A stretch of DNA of 32,806 nt. It comes from an uncultured Clostridia bacterium. GTDB taxonomy: Bacteria; Bacillota; Clostridia; Oscillospirales; Ruminococcaceae. Of the stretch, positions 16,196-22,268 are shown piece after piece; positions within the stretch are counted from its first letter, which is position 1; every line of letters starts with the position of its first letter. The translations under genes were made by a program, and so were the position numbers. The stretch spans positions 1 to 32,806 of the forward strand of contig CANRZX010000005.1 in assembly GCA_947644575.1 (NCBI GenBank), written 5' to 3'. The notes beneath the pieces were generated by a model, which was not told the origin of the DNA, did no database searches, and worked only from the letters and a program-made list of their open reading frames with translations.

Positions 16196-16203
16196 GGCAT
16201 TGT

Positions 16204-16235
16204 AAACGTTTCCGGTAACACTTCCGGTAACGTTT
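16204..16235 (+). promoter_or_regulatory. Twin operator for a LacI-family regulator
   Basis: AAACGTTT at 16204-16211 and AACGTTT at 16229-16235 flank two direct TTCCGGTAAC repeats. The 32-base unit is also an imperfect palindrome. The AACGTT core is typical of LacI/MalR/CcpA-type sites. The site covers the predicted transcription start, and a LacI-family gene lies downstream in the same cluster, so repression by that protein is likely (inference). Confidence 0.65.
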
Positions 16236-16272
16236 GTGGCCCGAATGAACTGAATTATTAGGAGGAGAAAAA

Positions 16273-17626
16273 ATGAGCAAAAAGTTTTGGGCACTTGCGC
16301 TTTGCGTCGTGATGGCGCTGTCCCTGCTGGCCGGCTGCTCGAGCAGCGGCAGCAGCACACCCATCAGCACCCCGGGGGGGGGGCTCTTCTGTTGCTGATA
16401 ATGGCGGCAGCGAACCCGCCGCGCCCGCCGCGTCCGGCTCAGTCTACTGGCTGAACTTCAAGCCGGAGTCCGATACGGTCCTGCAGGAGATCGCCGAAAT
16501 GTACACAGCGGAAACCGGCGTTCCTGTCAAGGTCGTCACCGCCTCGGCGGGCACTTACAACCAGCAGCTGACCGCCGAGATGGATAAGGCCGCGCCGCCG
16601 ACGCTGTTCGTCATCGGCAATACCGCCGCCGCGCGCGATTGGGCGGATTATGCGCTGGACCTGACCGGCACGCCTATCGAGGCCGAGCTGAACACCGACG
16701 CGTACAATATTTATGATGAGAGCGGCAAGCTTGTCTCCATCGGCTACTGCTACGAGTGCTACGGCATCATTGTGAACCCGACGCTGGTTGAAAAGGCCGG
16801 CCACAAGGTGGAGGATATCAAGGACTTTGAGAGCCTGAAAACGGTTGTGGAGGACATCCACGCCCGTGCCGCCGAGCTGGGCTTTGACGCGTTCACCTCC
16901 TGCGATATGGATTCGTCCAGCAGCTGGCGCTTCACGGGCCACATGGCGAACCTTGAGTACTATTACGAGCAGGAGGGCAAGACGTGGACCGAGTGCCCGC
17001 CCGAGCTCACCGGCAAGTATATGGAAAACTTCAAAAATCTGTACGACCTCGCCATCAACAACAGCCTCACCGCGCCCACCGCGCTGGCCAACGGCGGCCA
17101 TGACGCTTCGGAGGAATTCCGCTCCGGCAAGGCCGCGTTCCAGGTACAGGGCTCCTGGGAATACGAGGGGCTGAAGGAACAGGTTCCGAACGCCGTGATG
17201 ATCCCCTACTACTGCGGCGTGGAAGGCGAAGAGAAGGCCGGCTTGAACTGCGGCACCGAGAACTGCTGGGCCGTCAACGCCAAGGCTTCCGCCGAGGATC
17301 AGCAGGCCACGATGGATTTCATGGTCTGGTGCGTCACCAACCCTGAGGCCTCCCGCAAGCTGGTGGATTCCTTCGGCGTCATGCCCTATAAGAGTGCCGC
17401 GGAGTCCACAAACACCTTCCTTGCGAACGCCAACCAGTATGCCGCTGACGGCTGCTATGTTATGAACTGGGCCACCAACTTCCAGCCGAACGTGGATGAG
17501 TACCGCGCCACGCTCGTGAGCGCGCTGAACGCGTACAACGCCGATCAGTCCGACGCCAACTGGGAGACGGTCAAGACCGCGTTTGTACAGGGCTGGGCCG
17601 TGCAGTACAAGGCGGTAAACGGTTAA
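16273..17626 (+). CDS. Sugar ABC transporter substrate-binding lipoprotein, frame broken at a G10 run
   Basis: A family 1 extracellular solute-binding protein (maltose/maltodextrin type). The signal MSKKFWALALCVVMALSLLAGC gives lipidation at Cys22, followed by a Ser/Gly/Pro/Ala linker. The mature domain begins SVYWLNFKPESDTVLQEIAEMY and ends FVQGWAVQYKAVNG. The start ATG has AGGAGG about 12 bases upstream. Read as given, the frame ends at a TGA 17 bases after a G10 tract (16374-16383). With nine G the frame is continuous for about 450 residues, the normal family length. Either a sequencing or assembly slip or true slippage-based switching would explain this. The rest of the gene is intact, so it is probably functional in at least part of the population. 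It is the first gene of the operon. Confidence 0.85.
16374..16383 (+). repeat. G10 homopolymer inside the lipoprotein linker
   Basis: Ten consecutive G follow CCCC, so the tract could also fold back. It lies about 12 codons after the lipidation Cys, in the flexible linker, where changes in residue number would be tolerated. Loss of one G restores the reading frame. Confidence 0.9.
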
Positions 17627-17700: not shown

Positions 17701-17777
17701 CAAATTTTCAAAAAGGCGGAGGGCATTTGCCGAACGTCCCGCCCGCAGACAGGAAACCACAGAGGAGGATGCGCAGC

Positions 17778-18683
17778 TTGAAAAAGAATAAACAGATCGG
17801 CGGCAGTACCATTCACGTCGCCACACGCCGCTGGTGGCCGCTGTTCCTCGGCCCCGTTGTCGCGGCGTTCATCATTGGCTTTGTGTGGCCCTTCTTCCAG
17901 GGCATCTACCTTTCGTTCTGCTCTTTCAAGACGGTCTCGAACGCGACGTTTGTCGGCCTTCAAAACTACATCAAGGCGTTTTCGGACGTCAGCTTCCGGC
18001 ACGCGTTCTGGTACACGGCGCTGTTTGCCGTCACAAGCCTTGTCATCATCAACATCGCCGCTTTCGCGGTGGCCTACGCGCTGACAAAGGGGATCAGAGG
18101 CAGCAATCTGTTCCGCACCGTCTTCTTCATGCCGAACCTGATCGGCGGCATCGTGCTGGGCTATATCTGGTCGATGATTTTCGACGGCATCCTCAGCCGC
18201 TTCAATACCTCGATCATGGTCAACGCGAAGTTCGGGTTCTGGGGTTTGATCATTCTGGTCGCGTGGCAGCAGATCGGCTATATGATGATCATTTACATCG
18301 CGGGCCTGCAGGCTGTGCCGGGAGATATTTTGGAGGCTGCGGACATCGACGGCGCAACGGGCTGGCAGACGCTGTTCCGCGTCATCATCCCGAACGTGAT
18401 GCCCTCGATCACGATCTGTATGTTCCTTTCGCTGACAAACGGCTTCAAGCTCTTTGACCAGAACCTCGCGCTCACGGCGGGCCAGCCTTTCATGATTCAG
18501 CCGGACGGCACGACCGTCAAGCAGACGGAAATGCTTGCGCTGAACATCTATAACACATTCTATACCTCAAGCGTCGCCTCTCAGGGCACCGCACAGGCAA
18601 AGGCCGTGATCTTCTTTATCCTTGTGGCGGGCCTGAGCCTGCTCCAGCTTTCTTTCACACGCAAAAAGGAGGTGCAGCAATAA
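17778..18683 (+). CDS. Sugar ABC transporter permease, MalF/UgpA type
   Basis: A 301-residue inner-membrane permease with about six membrane spans. The cytoplasmic EAA loop is EAADIDGATGWQTLFRVIIPNVMPSI, which docks on the ATPase. FLGPVVAAFIIGFVWPFFQGIYLSF is the first span. I chose TTG 17778 because GGAGG lies nine bases upstream; ATG 17769 touches that site and is too close. The stop overlaps the next ATG (TAATG). Together with the binding protein before and the permease after it forms an oligosaccharide importer. The nearby glucanotransferase suggests maltodextrins. Confidence 0.9.
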   Translation: MKKNKQIGGSTIHVATRRWWPLFLGPVVAAFIIGFVWPFFQGIYLSFCSFKTVSNATFVGLQNYIKAFSDVSFRHAFWYTALFAVTSLVIINIAAFAVAYALTKGIRGSNLFRTVFFMPNLIGGIVLGYIWSMIFDGILSRFNTSIMVNAKFGFWGLIILVAWQQIGYMMIIYIAGLQAVPGDILEAADIDGATGWQTLFRVIIPNVMPSITICMFLSLTNGFKLFDQNLALTAGQPFMIQPDGTTVKQTEMLALNIYNTFYTSSVASQGTAQAKAVIFFILVAGLSLLQLSFTRKKEVQQ

Positions 18684-19537
18684 TGAACGGTACGCTTTCC
18701 AAACAGCGCCGCGGCAAAACGATCCTGTCTGTGGTGATGGGCGTCGTTAGCTTCATCTACGTAATGCCGGTGTTCACGGTACTGCTCAACTCCTTCAAGC
18801 TGAACACCTTCGTCAAGACGAATACGTTCGCATTGCCCACCGGCGAGATGTGGGCCGGCTTTTCCAACTTTGCCAAAGGCATGACCTTCGGTAACTATCC
18901 GTTCGTAAAAAGCGTGCTCTACAGCGTGGTTATTACCATTTTGTCCACCGCGCTCATCCTTATCGGCACTACGATGGCCGCGTGGTATATTACGCGCGTC
19001 GATTCCAAATTCTGCCGGGCGCTGTATTACCTGTGCGTCTTTTCGATGGTGGTGCCCTTCCAGATGGTGATGTTTACACTGTCCAAGACAGCGGACAGCC
19101 TGCGGCTGAACACGCCGTTTACAATTCCCATCGTCTATTTGGGCTTCGGCGCGGGGCTGGCGATCTTTATGTTCGTGGGCTTTGTCAAATCGATTCCGCT
19201 CGAGATCGAAGAGGCCGCCGCGATGGACGGCTGCGGGCCGGTGCGCATCTTCTTTAACGTCGTGCTGCCGATGCTGCAGCCGACGATGATCTCCGTGGCG
19301 ATTCTGGAGATCATGTGGGTCTGGAACGACTATCTGCTGCCGGCGCTCGTGCTGGATATCAACGAGTACCGCACCATCCCCATCCACATCCAGTATTTGA
19401 AGGGCAGCTACGGCACGGTCGACCTCGGCGCGACGATGGCGCTGATCTTCATGAGCATCCTTCCCGTCATCGTCTTCTACCTGACATGCCAGAAATATAT
19501 CATTGAAGGCGTTGCGGCCGGCGCCGTAAAGGGATAA
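18683..19537 (+). CDS. Sugar ABC transporter permease, MalG type
   Basis: The second 284-residue permease of the importer, with six spans and the EAA loop EEAAAMDGCGPVRIFFNVVLPMLQPT. MGVVSFIYVMPVFTVLLNSFK and the C-terminal GVAAGAVKG are typical MalG-like features. The start ATG overlaps the upstream stop and has AAAAAGGAGG in front. No ATP-binding subunit follows; as in many Gram-positive bacteria, a shared MsmX/MsiK-type ATPase elsewhere is expected (inference). Confidence 0.92.
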   Translation: MNGTLSKQRRGKTILSVVMGVVSFIYVMPVFTVLLNSFKLNTFVKTNTFALPTGEMWAGFSNFAKGMTFGNYPFVKSVLYSVVITILSTALILIGTTMAAWYITRVDSKFCRALYYLCVFSMVVPFQMVMFTLSKTADSLRLNTPFTIPIVYLGFGAGLAIFMFVGFVKSIPLEIEEAAAMDGCGPVRIFFNVVLPMLQPTMISVAILEIMWVWNDYLLPALVLDINEYRTIPIHIQYLKGSYGTVDLGATMALIFMSILPVIVFYLTCQKYIIEGVAAGAVKG

Positions 19538-19634: not shown

Positions 19635-20690
19635 TTGACCATCAAGGATATTGCCCGGCTGTCCGGGTACAGCGTGGCGACGGTGTCCCGCGCGCTGAAC
19701 AGCCATCCGGACATCAGCGAGCAGGCACGCGCGAGGATCCTCGCCGTGGTGGAACAGCAGGATTTCCAGCCCAACAACAACGCGAAGCATCTCAAGCAGC
19801 AGGCCGACGCCGGCGTCGCCATCATCGTCAAGGGCATTATGAACCTGCTGTTTGCCGAGCTGGTCGAGCGCCTGCAGGAGCTTCTGCAGAGCGCCGGGCA
19901 GGAGACGGCCGTCCATTATTTGGACGAGGACGCGAACGAGGTGACCTACGCCTGCCAGCTCTGCCGCGAGCGCAAGCCGCGCGGCATCCTGTTCTTAGGC
20001 GGGGATCTCGAGCTGTTCCGCACAGGCTTTGCGCCGATCACCGTACCCTGCGTGCTGCTGACGAACAGCGCCAGCGAATTGGGCTTTGAGAATCTGTCCT
20101 CGTTTACCACCGACGACGCGGCCGCCGCCGCGCAGGTGATCGAGCTTTTGGCCCAGCGGGGCCACCGGCGTATCGGCGTTTTGGGTGGCAATTTTTCCTG
20201 CTTTCAGATCAGTTTCCGCCGCCTGACGGGCTGCCGCTCCGCGTGCGAGCAATTAGGCATCCCCTTCGACGAAACGCTGCAGTATGAGCCCTGCCGCTAC
20301 TCCATGCGCGAGGCGTACGCCGCGACGTGCCGCCTGCTCGAGCGCTGCCCCGACCTGACGGCCCTTTTCGCTGTCAGTGACGTCACCGCGATGGGAGCGA
20401 TCCGCGCTCTGTACGACCGGGGGCGGCGCGTCCCGGAGGATATTTCTGTGGTGGGCTACGACGGCATCGAGATGAGCCGATACACCATCCCGCGCCTGAC
20501 GACCGTTCGTCAGGACGTGATGCGGCTGGCCGAGTGCGGCGTGGACGATCTGCTGCGCCGCATCGGCTGGAACCGCCCGCCCATCCATGAGGTGATCCCG
20601 TTCCGGCTGATTTCCGGCGAGAGCGTCGCCGCGCCGGCCGGGAAAGCAGCCCCCGGCGAGGGCGGCGCGGCGGTACGGCATGACGGATGA
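19635..20690 (+). CDS. LacI-family transcriptional regulator
   Basis: A 351-residue repressor. The N-terminal helix-turn-helix is TIKDIARLSGYSVATVSRAL with the hinge region around residues 45-60. A periplasmic-binding-protein-like ligand domain follows (AIIVKGIMNLLFAELVERLQ; LTALFAVSDVTAMGAIRALYDRGRRVPEDISVVGYD; IPRLTTVRQD). The start is TTG 19635 with GTGAGGA about eight bases upstream; homology begins right there. It lies between the importer permeases and the glucanotransferase and most likely senses maltodextrin or maltose and controls the promoter at 16167-16235 (inference). Confidence 0.93.
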   Translation: MTIKDIARLSGYSVATVSRALNSHPDISEQARARILAVVEQQDFQPNNNAKHLKQQADAGVAIIVKGIMNLLFAELVERLQELLQSAGQETAVHYLDEDANEVTYACQLCRERKPRGILFLGGDLELFRTGFAPITVPCVLLTNSASELGFENLSSFTTDDAAAAAQVIELLAQRGHRRIGVLGGNFSCFQISFRRLTGCRSACEQLGIPFDETLQYEPCRYSMREAYAATCRLLERCPDLTALFAVSDVTAMGAIRALYDRGRRVPEDISVVGYDGIEMSRYTIPRLTTVRQDVMRLAECGVDDLLRRIGWNRPPIHEVIPFRLISGESVAAPAGKAAPGEGGAAVRHDG

Positions 20691-20759
20691 AACGAAATAT
20701 CCCTATACAGACTGTCTAAAAAATTGCTTATCCAAACCAAAAAGAAAGGAGCGACGCGC

Positions 20760-22268
20760 ATGAGGAAAGCCGGGATTTTGATGCCCGTTTTTTCCCTTCC
20801 GTCTCCCTATGGAATCGGCACATTAGGGGCGCAGGCCCGCGCGTTTGTCGATTTTTTAGACGAGGGCGGGCAGTCCTTCTGGCAGCTTCTGCCCGTGGGC
20901 CCCACCAGCTATGGGGATTCGCCCTATCAGTCGTTTTCATCGTTCGCGGGCAATCCCTATTTCATTGATTTTGACGAGCTGGCCGCCGATGGCCTGCTGC
21001 ACCCATCGGAATACCAATCCGCCGGCTGGGGGGACGATCCCGCCGTCGTGGATTACGGCCGGCTGTACGCGAACCGTTTTCCCGTGCTGCACCGCGCGTG
21101 CCGGCGCCTGCTCGAGCGCGCTCCGTCCGGCTTCGGGGAATTCTGCGCGCGTCAGGCCGATTGGTTAGACGATTACGCGCTCTTTATGGCGCTGAAGGCG
21201 CAGTACGGCGGCGTCTCCTGGTTCGAGTGGCCGCAGCCGCTGCGCCTGCGCGACGCGGCCGCGCTGGCGGAAAACCGCGCGCGGCTTTCCGATGAAGTCG
21301 CGTTCTGGAAGGCCGTACAGTACCTGTTCTTCCGCCAGTGGGGCGCGCTGAAGCGGTACGCGAACGCGAGGGGCGTGTCGATCATCGGGGACCTGCCCAT
21401 TTATGTCTCCGGCGACAGCGCCGACGTCTGGGCGAATCCCGCGCAGTTTCAGCTGGACGAAAACGGACTGCCCACCGAAGTCGCAGGCTGCCCGCCGGAC
21501 GGCTTTGCCGCGGAGGGCCAGCTTTGGGGCAACCCTCTGTTTGACTGGGAGCGGATGAAGCGCGACGGCTACCGCTGGTGGCTGCGGCGCATCGCCTTTC
21601 AGTTCACCATCTACGACACGCTGCGCATCGACCATTTCCGGGGCTTTGATTCCTATTACGCGATCCCCTACGGCGACACGACCGCGAAAAACGGCCGCTG
21701 GCGTCCCGGGCCGGGCATCGACTTTTTTAGCGCCGTGAAACGCGCCGTCGGCGAGAAGGACATTATCGCCGAGGATCTCGGCTTTCTGACGCCCTCTGTC
21801 CACAAGCTGGTCGAGGAAACCGGCTTTCCCGGCATGAAGGTGCTGGAGCTGGGCTTCGACAGCCGCGACGGCGCCAGTGAATATCTGCCCCACCGCTGCG
21901 GCCCGCATTGTGTGATTTACACCGGCACGCATGATAACGACACCGTGCGGGGCTGGCTGGCCGGCGCGCCGCGCGCCGACGCGGCCTACGCCAAAGCGTA
22001 CCTGCGCCTTTCCGCCCGCGAGGGCTATCATTGGGGCATGATGCGCGCCGCCTGGGCGTCCGCCGCCGAGCTAGCAATTATGCAGTTTCAGGATCTGCTC
22101 GGCCTTGGCAGTGAAGCGCGTATCAATACGCCCTCGACGCTGGGCGGAAACTGGAAATGGCGCGCGCTGCCCGGCTCGTTCGACGCGAGGCTGGCCCGCC
22201 GCCTGCGCCGCGAAATGCACGTCTATCAGCGCCTGCCCCTGCCGCAGGAGGAGCCGCGGGCGCGCTGA
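20760..22268 (+). CDS. malQ: 4-alpha-glucanotransferase (amylomaltase, GH77)
   Basis: Transfers alpha-1,4-glucan segments between maltodextrins and releases glucose, handling imported maltooligosaccharides in the cytosol. The 502 residues are the size of Thermus amylomaltase. The GH77 catalytic residues are visible at equivalent positions: nucleophile Asp291 in RIDHFRGFDSYY, acid/base Glu338 in IIAEDLG, and Asp392 in THDNDT. The opening motif (GILMPVFSLPSPYGIGTLG) and FWQLLPVGPTSYGDSPYQSFS are also characteristic. I chose ATG 20760 with AGAAAGGAG upstream. It is the last gene of the maltodextrin cluster, and the hairpin at 22478-22525 probably terminates it. Confidence 0.97.
   Translation: MRKAGILMPVFSLPSPYGIGTLGAQARAFVDFLDEGGQSFWQLLPVGPTSYGDSPYQSFSSFAGNPYFIDFDELAADGLLHPSEYQSAGWGDDPAVVDYGRLYANRFPVLHRACRRLLERAPSGFGEFCARQADWLDDYALFMALKAQYGGVSWFEWPQPLRLRDAAALAENRARLSDEVAFWKAVQYLFFRQWGALKRYANARGVSIIGDLPIYVSGDSADVWANPAQFQLDENGLPTEVAGCPPDGFAAEGQLWGNPLFDWERMKRDGYRWWLRRIAFQFTIYDTLRIDHFRGFDSYYAIPYGDTTAKNGRWRPGPGIDFFSAVKRAVGEKDIIAEDLGFLTPSVHKLVEETGFPGMKVLELGFDSRDGASEYLPHRCGPHCVIYTGTHDNDTVRGWLAGAPRADAAYAKAYLRLSAREGYHWGMMRAAWASAAELAIMQFQDLLGLGSEARINTPSTLGGNWKWRALPGSFDARLARRLRREMHVYQRLPLPQEEPRAR

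Follow-up and report, generated by a model that had tools for sequence, protein, structure and literature searches.

The locus described here raises the question of whether a run of guanines can switch a sugar receptor on and off in a gut Clostridia bacterium. It lies in a 32,806-nucleotide stretch of DNA from an uncultured member of the Ruminococcaceae (assembly GCA_947644575.1, contig CANRZX010000005.1), which is referred to below as the window. The start of the gene encodes a lipoprotein signal peptide, which is followed by a Ser/Pro/Gly linker, and 12 codons past Cys22 this linker runs into ten consecutive G (the surrounding letters are ...agcacccc-G10-ctcttctgttgctgataatgg...). Translation from the ATG at 16273 gives MSKKFWALALCVVMALSLLAGCSSSGSSTPISTPGGGLFCC and then TGA, for a product of 41 residues. 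A second frame, from 16382 to 17626, is open for 414 codons and matches SBP_bac_8 (6.5e-31) as well as SBP_bac_1. No ATG, GTG or TTG start for the 414-residue frame was found 5' of the tract, and the mature domain is therefore not secretable from the DNA as written. With nine G in place of ten, frame analysis predicts a 450-codon lipoprotein ORF that crosses the tract at the junction T-P-G-G-G-S-S-V-A-D.

These results bear out the first-pass annotation, which had claimed that a G10 tract 12 codons after the lipidation Cys breaks the frame, that nine G would give back about 450 residues (a 450-codon ORF on paper), and that the gene is otherwise intact; the 414-residue domain is open, the operon is complete and no other lesion was seen. 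The arrangement is that of a homopolymer locus, with G10 in the 5' part of an ORF, at a single locus, and placed so that its length would set ON or OFF, the tract being presumed hypermutable. Positions of the features are collected in Table 1.

Table 1. Features of the receptor gene and its operon (positions in the window)
Feature	Position	Strand	Remarks and basis
Two LacI-type operator-like sites, GTAAACGTTTCCGGTAAC and GGTAACGTTTGTGG	16202..16239	+	5' of the SBP gene; read from sequence
Ribosome-binding site AGGAGG	16260..16265	+	Sequence
Lipoprotein signal peptide, lipobox LAGC, Cys22	16273..16338	+	Translation
G10 homopolymer	16374..16383	+	Pro-Gly-Gly-Gly linker; mature domain thereby out of frame; sequence, frames, genome run counts
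Solute-binding domain, mature part, 414 aa, SBP_bac_8	16382..17626	+	Intact; frame differs from that of the signal peptide
Premature TGA, met in the signal-peptide frame	16396..16398	+	Sequence, translation
ABC sugar permease 1 (BPD_transp_1)	17727..18683	+	
ABC sugar permease 2 (BPD_transp_1)	18683..19537	+	
LacI-family regulator	19635..20690	+	
4-alpha-glucanotransferase (GH77)	20724..22268	+	

A lipobox peptide and an SBP fold beside two BPD_transp_1 permeases identify the product as the solute-binding lipoprotein of a sugar ABC transporter, its parts lying in different frames at the G10. The window and its closest relative, G007 (L017), share the gene order SBP, permease, permease, LacI, GH77. 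Maltodextrin is a plausible substrate, given the neighbouring GH77 and LacI genes, and the operator-like sites upstream may act as operators in an operon that holds a LacI-family gene. No further copy or G9 variant of the SBP gene was found in the same assembly.

The receptor gene is constrained. Compared with the same-genus ortholog in G007 (81-82% identity), dN/dS was about 0.21 over 406 codons, with values of 0.11-0.16 for the neighbours permG, LacI and GH77 in the same comparison, and the constraint was similar along the full length of the gene. No second lesion was found anywhere in it. Taken together, the constraint and the absence of other lesions imply that any loss is recent, and that the out-of-frame state is young, reversible or not real.

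Run statistics from 1.10 Mb of the window's own genome indicate how unusual such a tract is. Counts of G/C runs at lengths 4 to 7 were 4943, 924, 133 and 14, falling by factors of 0.19, 0.14 and 0.11 per step, and extrapolation of this decay predicts 0.02-0.07 runs of at least ten, where five were observed: the G10 of the window, G15 on contig C7, G10 on contigs C12 and C26, and a C11 run on contig C20. The longest A/T runs in the same sequence were 9. Dinucleotide shuffles of the window gave no excess of runs of G7 or longer (4 vs 4.9 expected), and by that measure the G10 is unremarkable; the actual G/C runs of the genome decay far faster than the dinucleotide model. Long G-runs are a distinct, non-random class in this genome. 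Among 35 lipoprotein starts in the 1.10 Mb, the linker G-run was at most 6 in all but the window's gene.

Additional runs of at least ten occur elsewhere in the genome, on contigs C11, C93, C99, C101 and C119, and several also lie at contig ends, including a C44 run at contig C141 and C14G21 at contig C126. The runs on contigs C20 and C99 are intergenic. The runs on contigs C12 (a serine-dehydratase-like gene) and C93 (a response regulator) fall in the 3' tails of genes, and the G10 on contig C26 keeps the frame of the 688-codon ORF that surrounds it; among clearly coding tracts, only the window's G10 breaks a gene near its start. On contig C119 a LysR-type regulator has a G12 run (L014 2063-2074) immediately 5' of its ribosome-binding region.

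Related genomes do not keep the tract at this position. None of 93 homologous loci (about 90 homologs), including the 81-82% identical same-genus ortholog, had a linker run of at least 9; the longest were C8 and G7, and the SBP was in frame in every homolog. A reciprocal case was found in G007, where another SBP lipoprotein (L268/L286) carries CCCC-G9-TTCTTC at the same linker position, in frame and with near-identical flanks; the window's genome has an 87% identical ortholog of that gene (L287), in which the corresponding residues are ADDGGSVSSG and no run is present. The reciprocal absence of tracts between the SBP lipoproteins of the two genomes implies that tracts come and go in a variable linker, and they seem to arise and vanish where Pro-Gly-Gly-Gly is spelled CCG GGG GGG GGN in low-complexity sequence. 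A search of 398 family genomes for lipoproteins with a lipobox and poly-G yielded no convincing further case, with a gap limit of 30 that is below the window's 34, so that it covered shorter linkers only. An evolved, conserved switch at the SBP locus is thus unsupported, as no homolog has the tract and the reciprocal G007 case is equally unconserved. The pattern resembles that of an accidental mutable tract, not an old contingency locus, and non-conservation favours a lineage-specific, possibly accidental mutable tract over a long-established contingency locus.

There is more support for the broader suggestion that long runs of G are of importance to this lineage: in its closest relatives, runs of G9-G13 occur within surface-protein, methylase, acyltransferase and lipoprotein genes, and promoters have runs of G15-G22. 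In G009 the gene for a secreted protein that has a PMP-like repeat and an Ig-like domain falls into two frames at a G10 (L283, G009:C254). The same happens in G002 to the gene for a C5-cytosine DNA methylase, at a G9 (L279, G002:C28:116734), which makes it a candidate phase-variable methylase. An Acyl_transf_3 protein of G002 (L280) has a G9 in frame, and an AraC-like regulator of G007 (L267) a G12 in frame. For the most part, tracts of at least 9 in genus mates are found in genes of classes in which phase variation is known.

The promoter tracts form a second group. On contig C7 (L002 2001-2033; G000:C7:5500-5532) the G15 is part of TTGACA-AGATAC-G15-TATAAT, which has perfect hexamers and a spacer of 21, and which is located 248 nt 5' of a coiled-coil ORF, the next gene being a probable signal peptidase; no real ortholog of this promoter was found in genus mates. 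The C14G21 at the start of contig C126 (L015 79-230) leads into TATTAT, 5' of a secreted protein beginning MKKRWTRALALMCTLALALTLAAPGFAEGE, and the assembly appears to have broken within a long promoter G tract at this point. Two similar promoters, with G19 and G22 likewise adjoining the -10 box, are present in G001, and a large secreted protein lies 3' of the G22 one.

Across the family, the pattern TTGACA-N(0-10)-G9-N(0-12)-TANNNT was present in 23 of 398 genomes, often with multiple matches in a single genome, and the reversed pattern was almost absent. These elements are of the Sigma70 type, TTGACA-N-G9..11-TATAAT, with the run abutting the -10 box and a spacer of mostly 14-21 (examples are L194, L196, L199, L201, L212, L217, L246-L254 and L260-L264). 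When a looser G5 pattern was applied to eight genomes, tract lengths peaked at G9-G11 and showed no decay. By a simple rule, 27 of the 39 downstream ORFs that were found had a signal peptide, vs 124 of 759 ORFs of the window's own genome (Fisher p about 2e-12, a guide only, as there are paralogs among the 39 ORFs and the baseline comes from another species). These promoters look like a class of contingency promoters for surface proteins, and they are a stronger and more general lead than the SBP tract. A second, promoter-like form, TTGACA-(C)CG9-TATG..., recurs in genera g106 and g59 (L200, L203, L215 and L216), 5' of small lipoproteins and secreted proteins; with hexamers only 11-12 apart, the actual -10 box is probably to be sought a few bases 3' of this point.

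With a probability of roughly 0.5, we favour the explanation that the SBP tract is a real, lineage-specific, slippage-prone run of G that was captured out of frame. The G10 would be a recent arrival in a sugar-binding lipoprotein, in its hypervariable Pro/Gly/Ser linker, and the assembly would have caught it in the OFF state. Slipped-strand mispairing at replication would add or remove G, leaving G9 and G12 in frame and other lengths out, and loss or recovery of the receptor would be frequent among cells. We infer that most cells do have G10, that switching goes both ways and that it is useful. The main rival to such a tract is a homopolymer error of assembly or consensus, which we regard as a serious possibility. 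Nearly all cells would then have G9 and normally make the receptor, the extra G coming from polymerase stutter or miscalling. The assembly is a draft of 262 contigs with obvious poly-G and poly-C artefacts at contig ends, in which homopolymer lengths may be unreliable, and miscounting by a single base is the error most often made at homopolymers; moreover, the constraint on the gene and the in-frame state of every homolog point to the ON form as the normal one. An error is harder to reconcile with the in-frame G10 that the same assembly gives within the 688-codon ORF of contig C26, and with the out-of-frame G9 and G10 of relatives, which occur in typical phase-variable gene classes and not in random genes.

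Two further explanations are less likely than a homopolymer error. Plain recent loss, in which a single +1 slippage was fixed in the strain and left a young pseudogene with no meaningful reversion, seems unlikely: the open frame is constrained and bears no second lesion, and a ten-base G tract is, from what is generally known of slippage, inherently prone to revert, even though the frame is broken without another start codon, the tract is unique to this genome and the genome has no second copy of the gene. It is very improbable that leaky or programmed decoding, through slippage of RNA polymerase or the ribosome on the G10, supplies some full-length receptor at any DNA length. Long homopolymers are in general possible slippage sites for polymerase or ribosome, but the tract is found in no homolog, which argues that no programmed site has been maintained.

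For the favoured slippage-prone tract, an evolved function as a phase switch is plausible, if unproven, on the sequence evidence. A more ambitious proposal, which we consider doubtful, is that poly-G tracts serve the genus and family as phase switches throughout the genome, in the promoter spacers of surface and secreted proteins and in surface, methylase and glycan-modification genes, with the SBP G10 among them, so that nutrient uptake would vary at random among the cells of one gut clone. Should the tract switch, a common lineage of gut bacteria would be turning a nutrient receptor on and off at random, and the poly-G promoters, recurrent as they are, would be signs of a contingency system of broader reach that lends itself to easy testing. 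Should it not, the locus is a reminder to treat homopolymers in draft and metagenome assemblies with care.

G/C tracts of this size are treated as hypermutable in the literature (PMC8355987, PMC11287997). Phase variation by definition entails reversible switching and a minimum rate in the absence of selection (PMC11868660), and for this reason we call the SBP locus a candidate and not a phase-variable gene. In gut and clostridial bacteria phase variation has been described mainly as DNA inversion (PMC11868660), and among open-licence papers we found none that describes switching by poly-G in these gut Clostridia, the matches being pathogens and Gardnerella. Simple sequence repeat (SSR) phase variation is nevertheless already known as a kind, with Gardnerella as a case from a Gram-positive commensal (PMC11287997).

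The closest parallels are the poly-G/C genes of Campylobacter, Helicobacter and Neisseria, such as the meningococcal haemoglobin receptor HmbR (PMC3786947) and the Campylobacter phasome (PMC6321876), in which, as here, about 9-10 G near the 5' end of an ORF for a surface protein or nutrient receptor set the frame by their length. In those organisms reversible switching and conserved tracts are documented, whereas the present case consists of an unconserved tract read from one draft genome. Gardnerella (PMC11287997) is likewise Gram-positive and host-associated, and its G/C tracts of at least 8 lie mostly upstream of or within ORFs for surface proteins, but it is an Actinobacterium in which length variation of one tract was shown by Sanger sequencing, while here a Clostridia-type gut genome presents one assembled length. 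The siaD C7 tract and the C8-to-C7 change in mga (PMC11868660) resemble the SBP locus as chance tracts with revertible loss of function and no sign of evolved switching; they differ in that the G10 described here stands well above the chance tail of its genome and has recurrent counterparts elsewhere in the genus.
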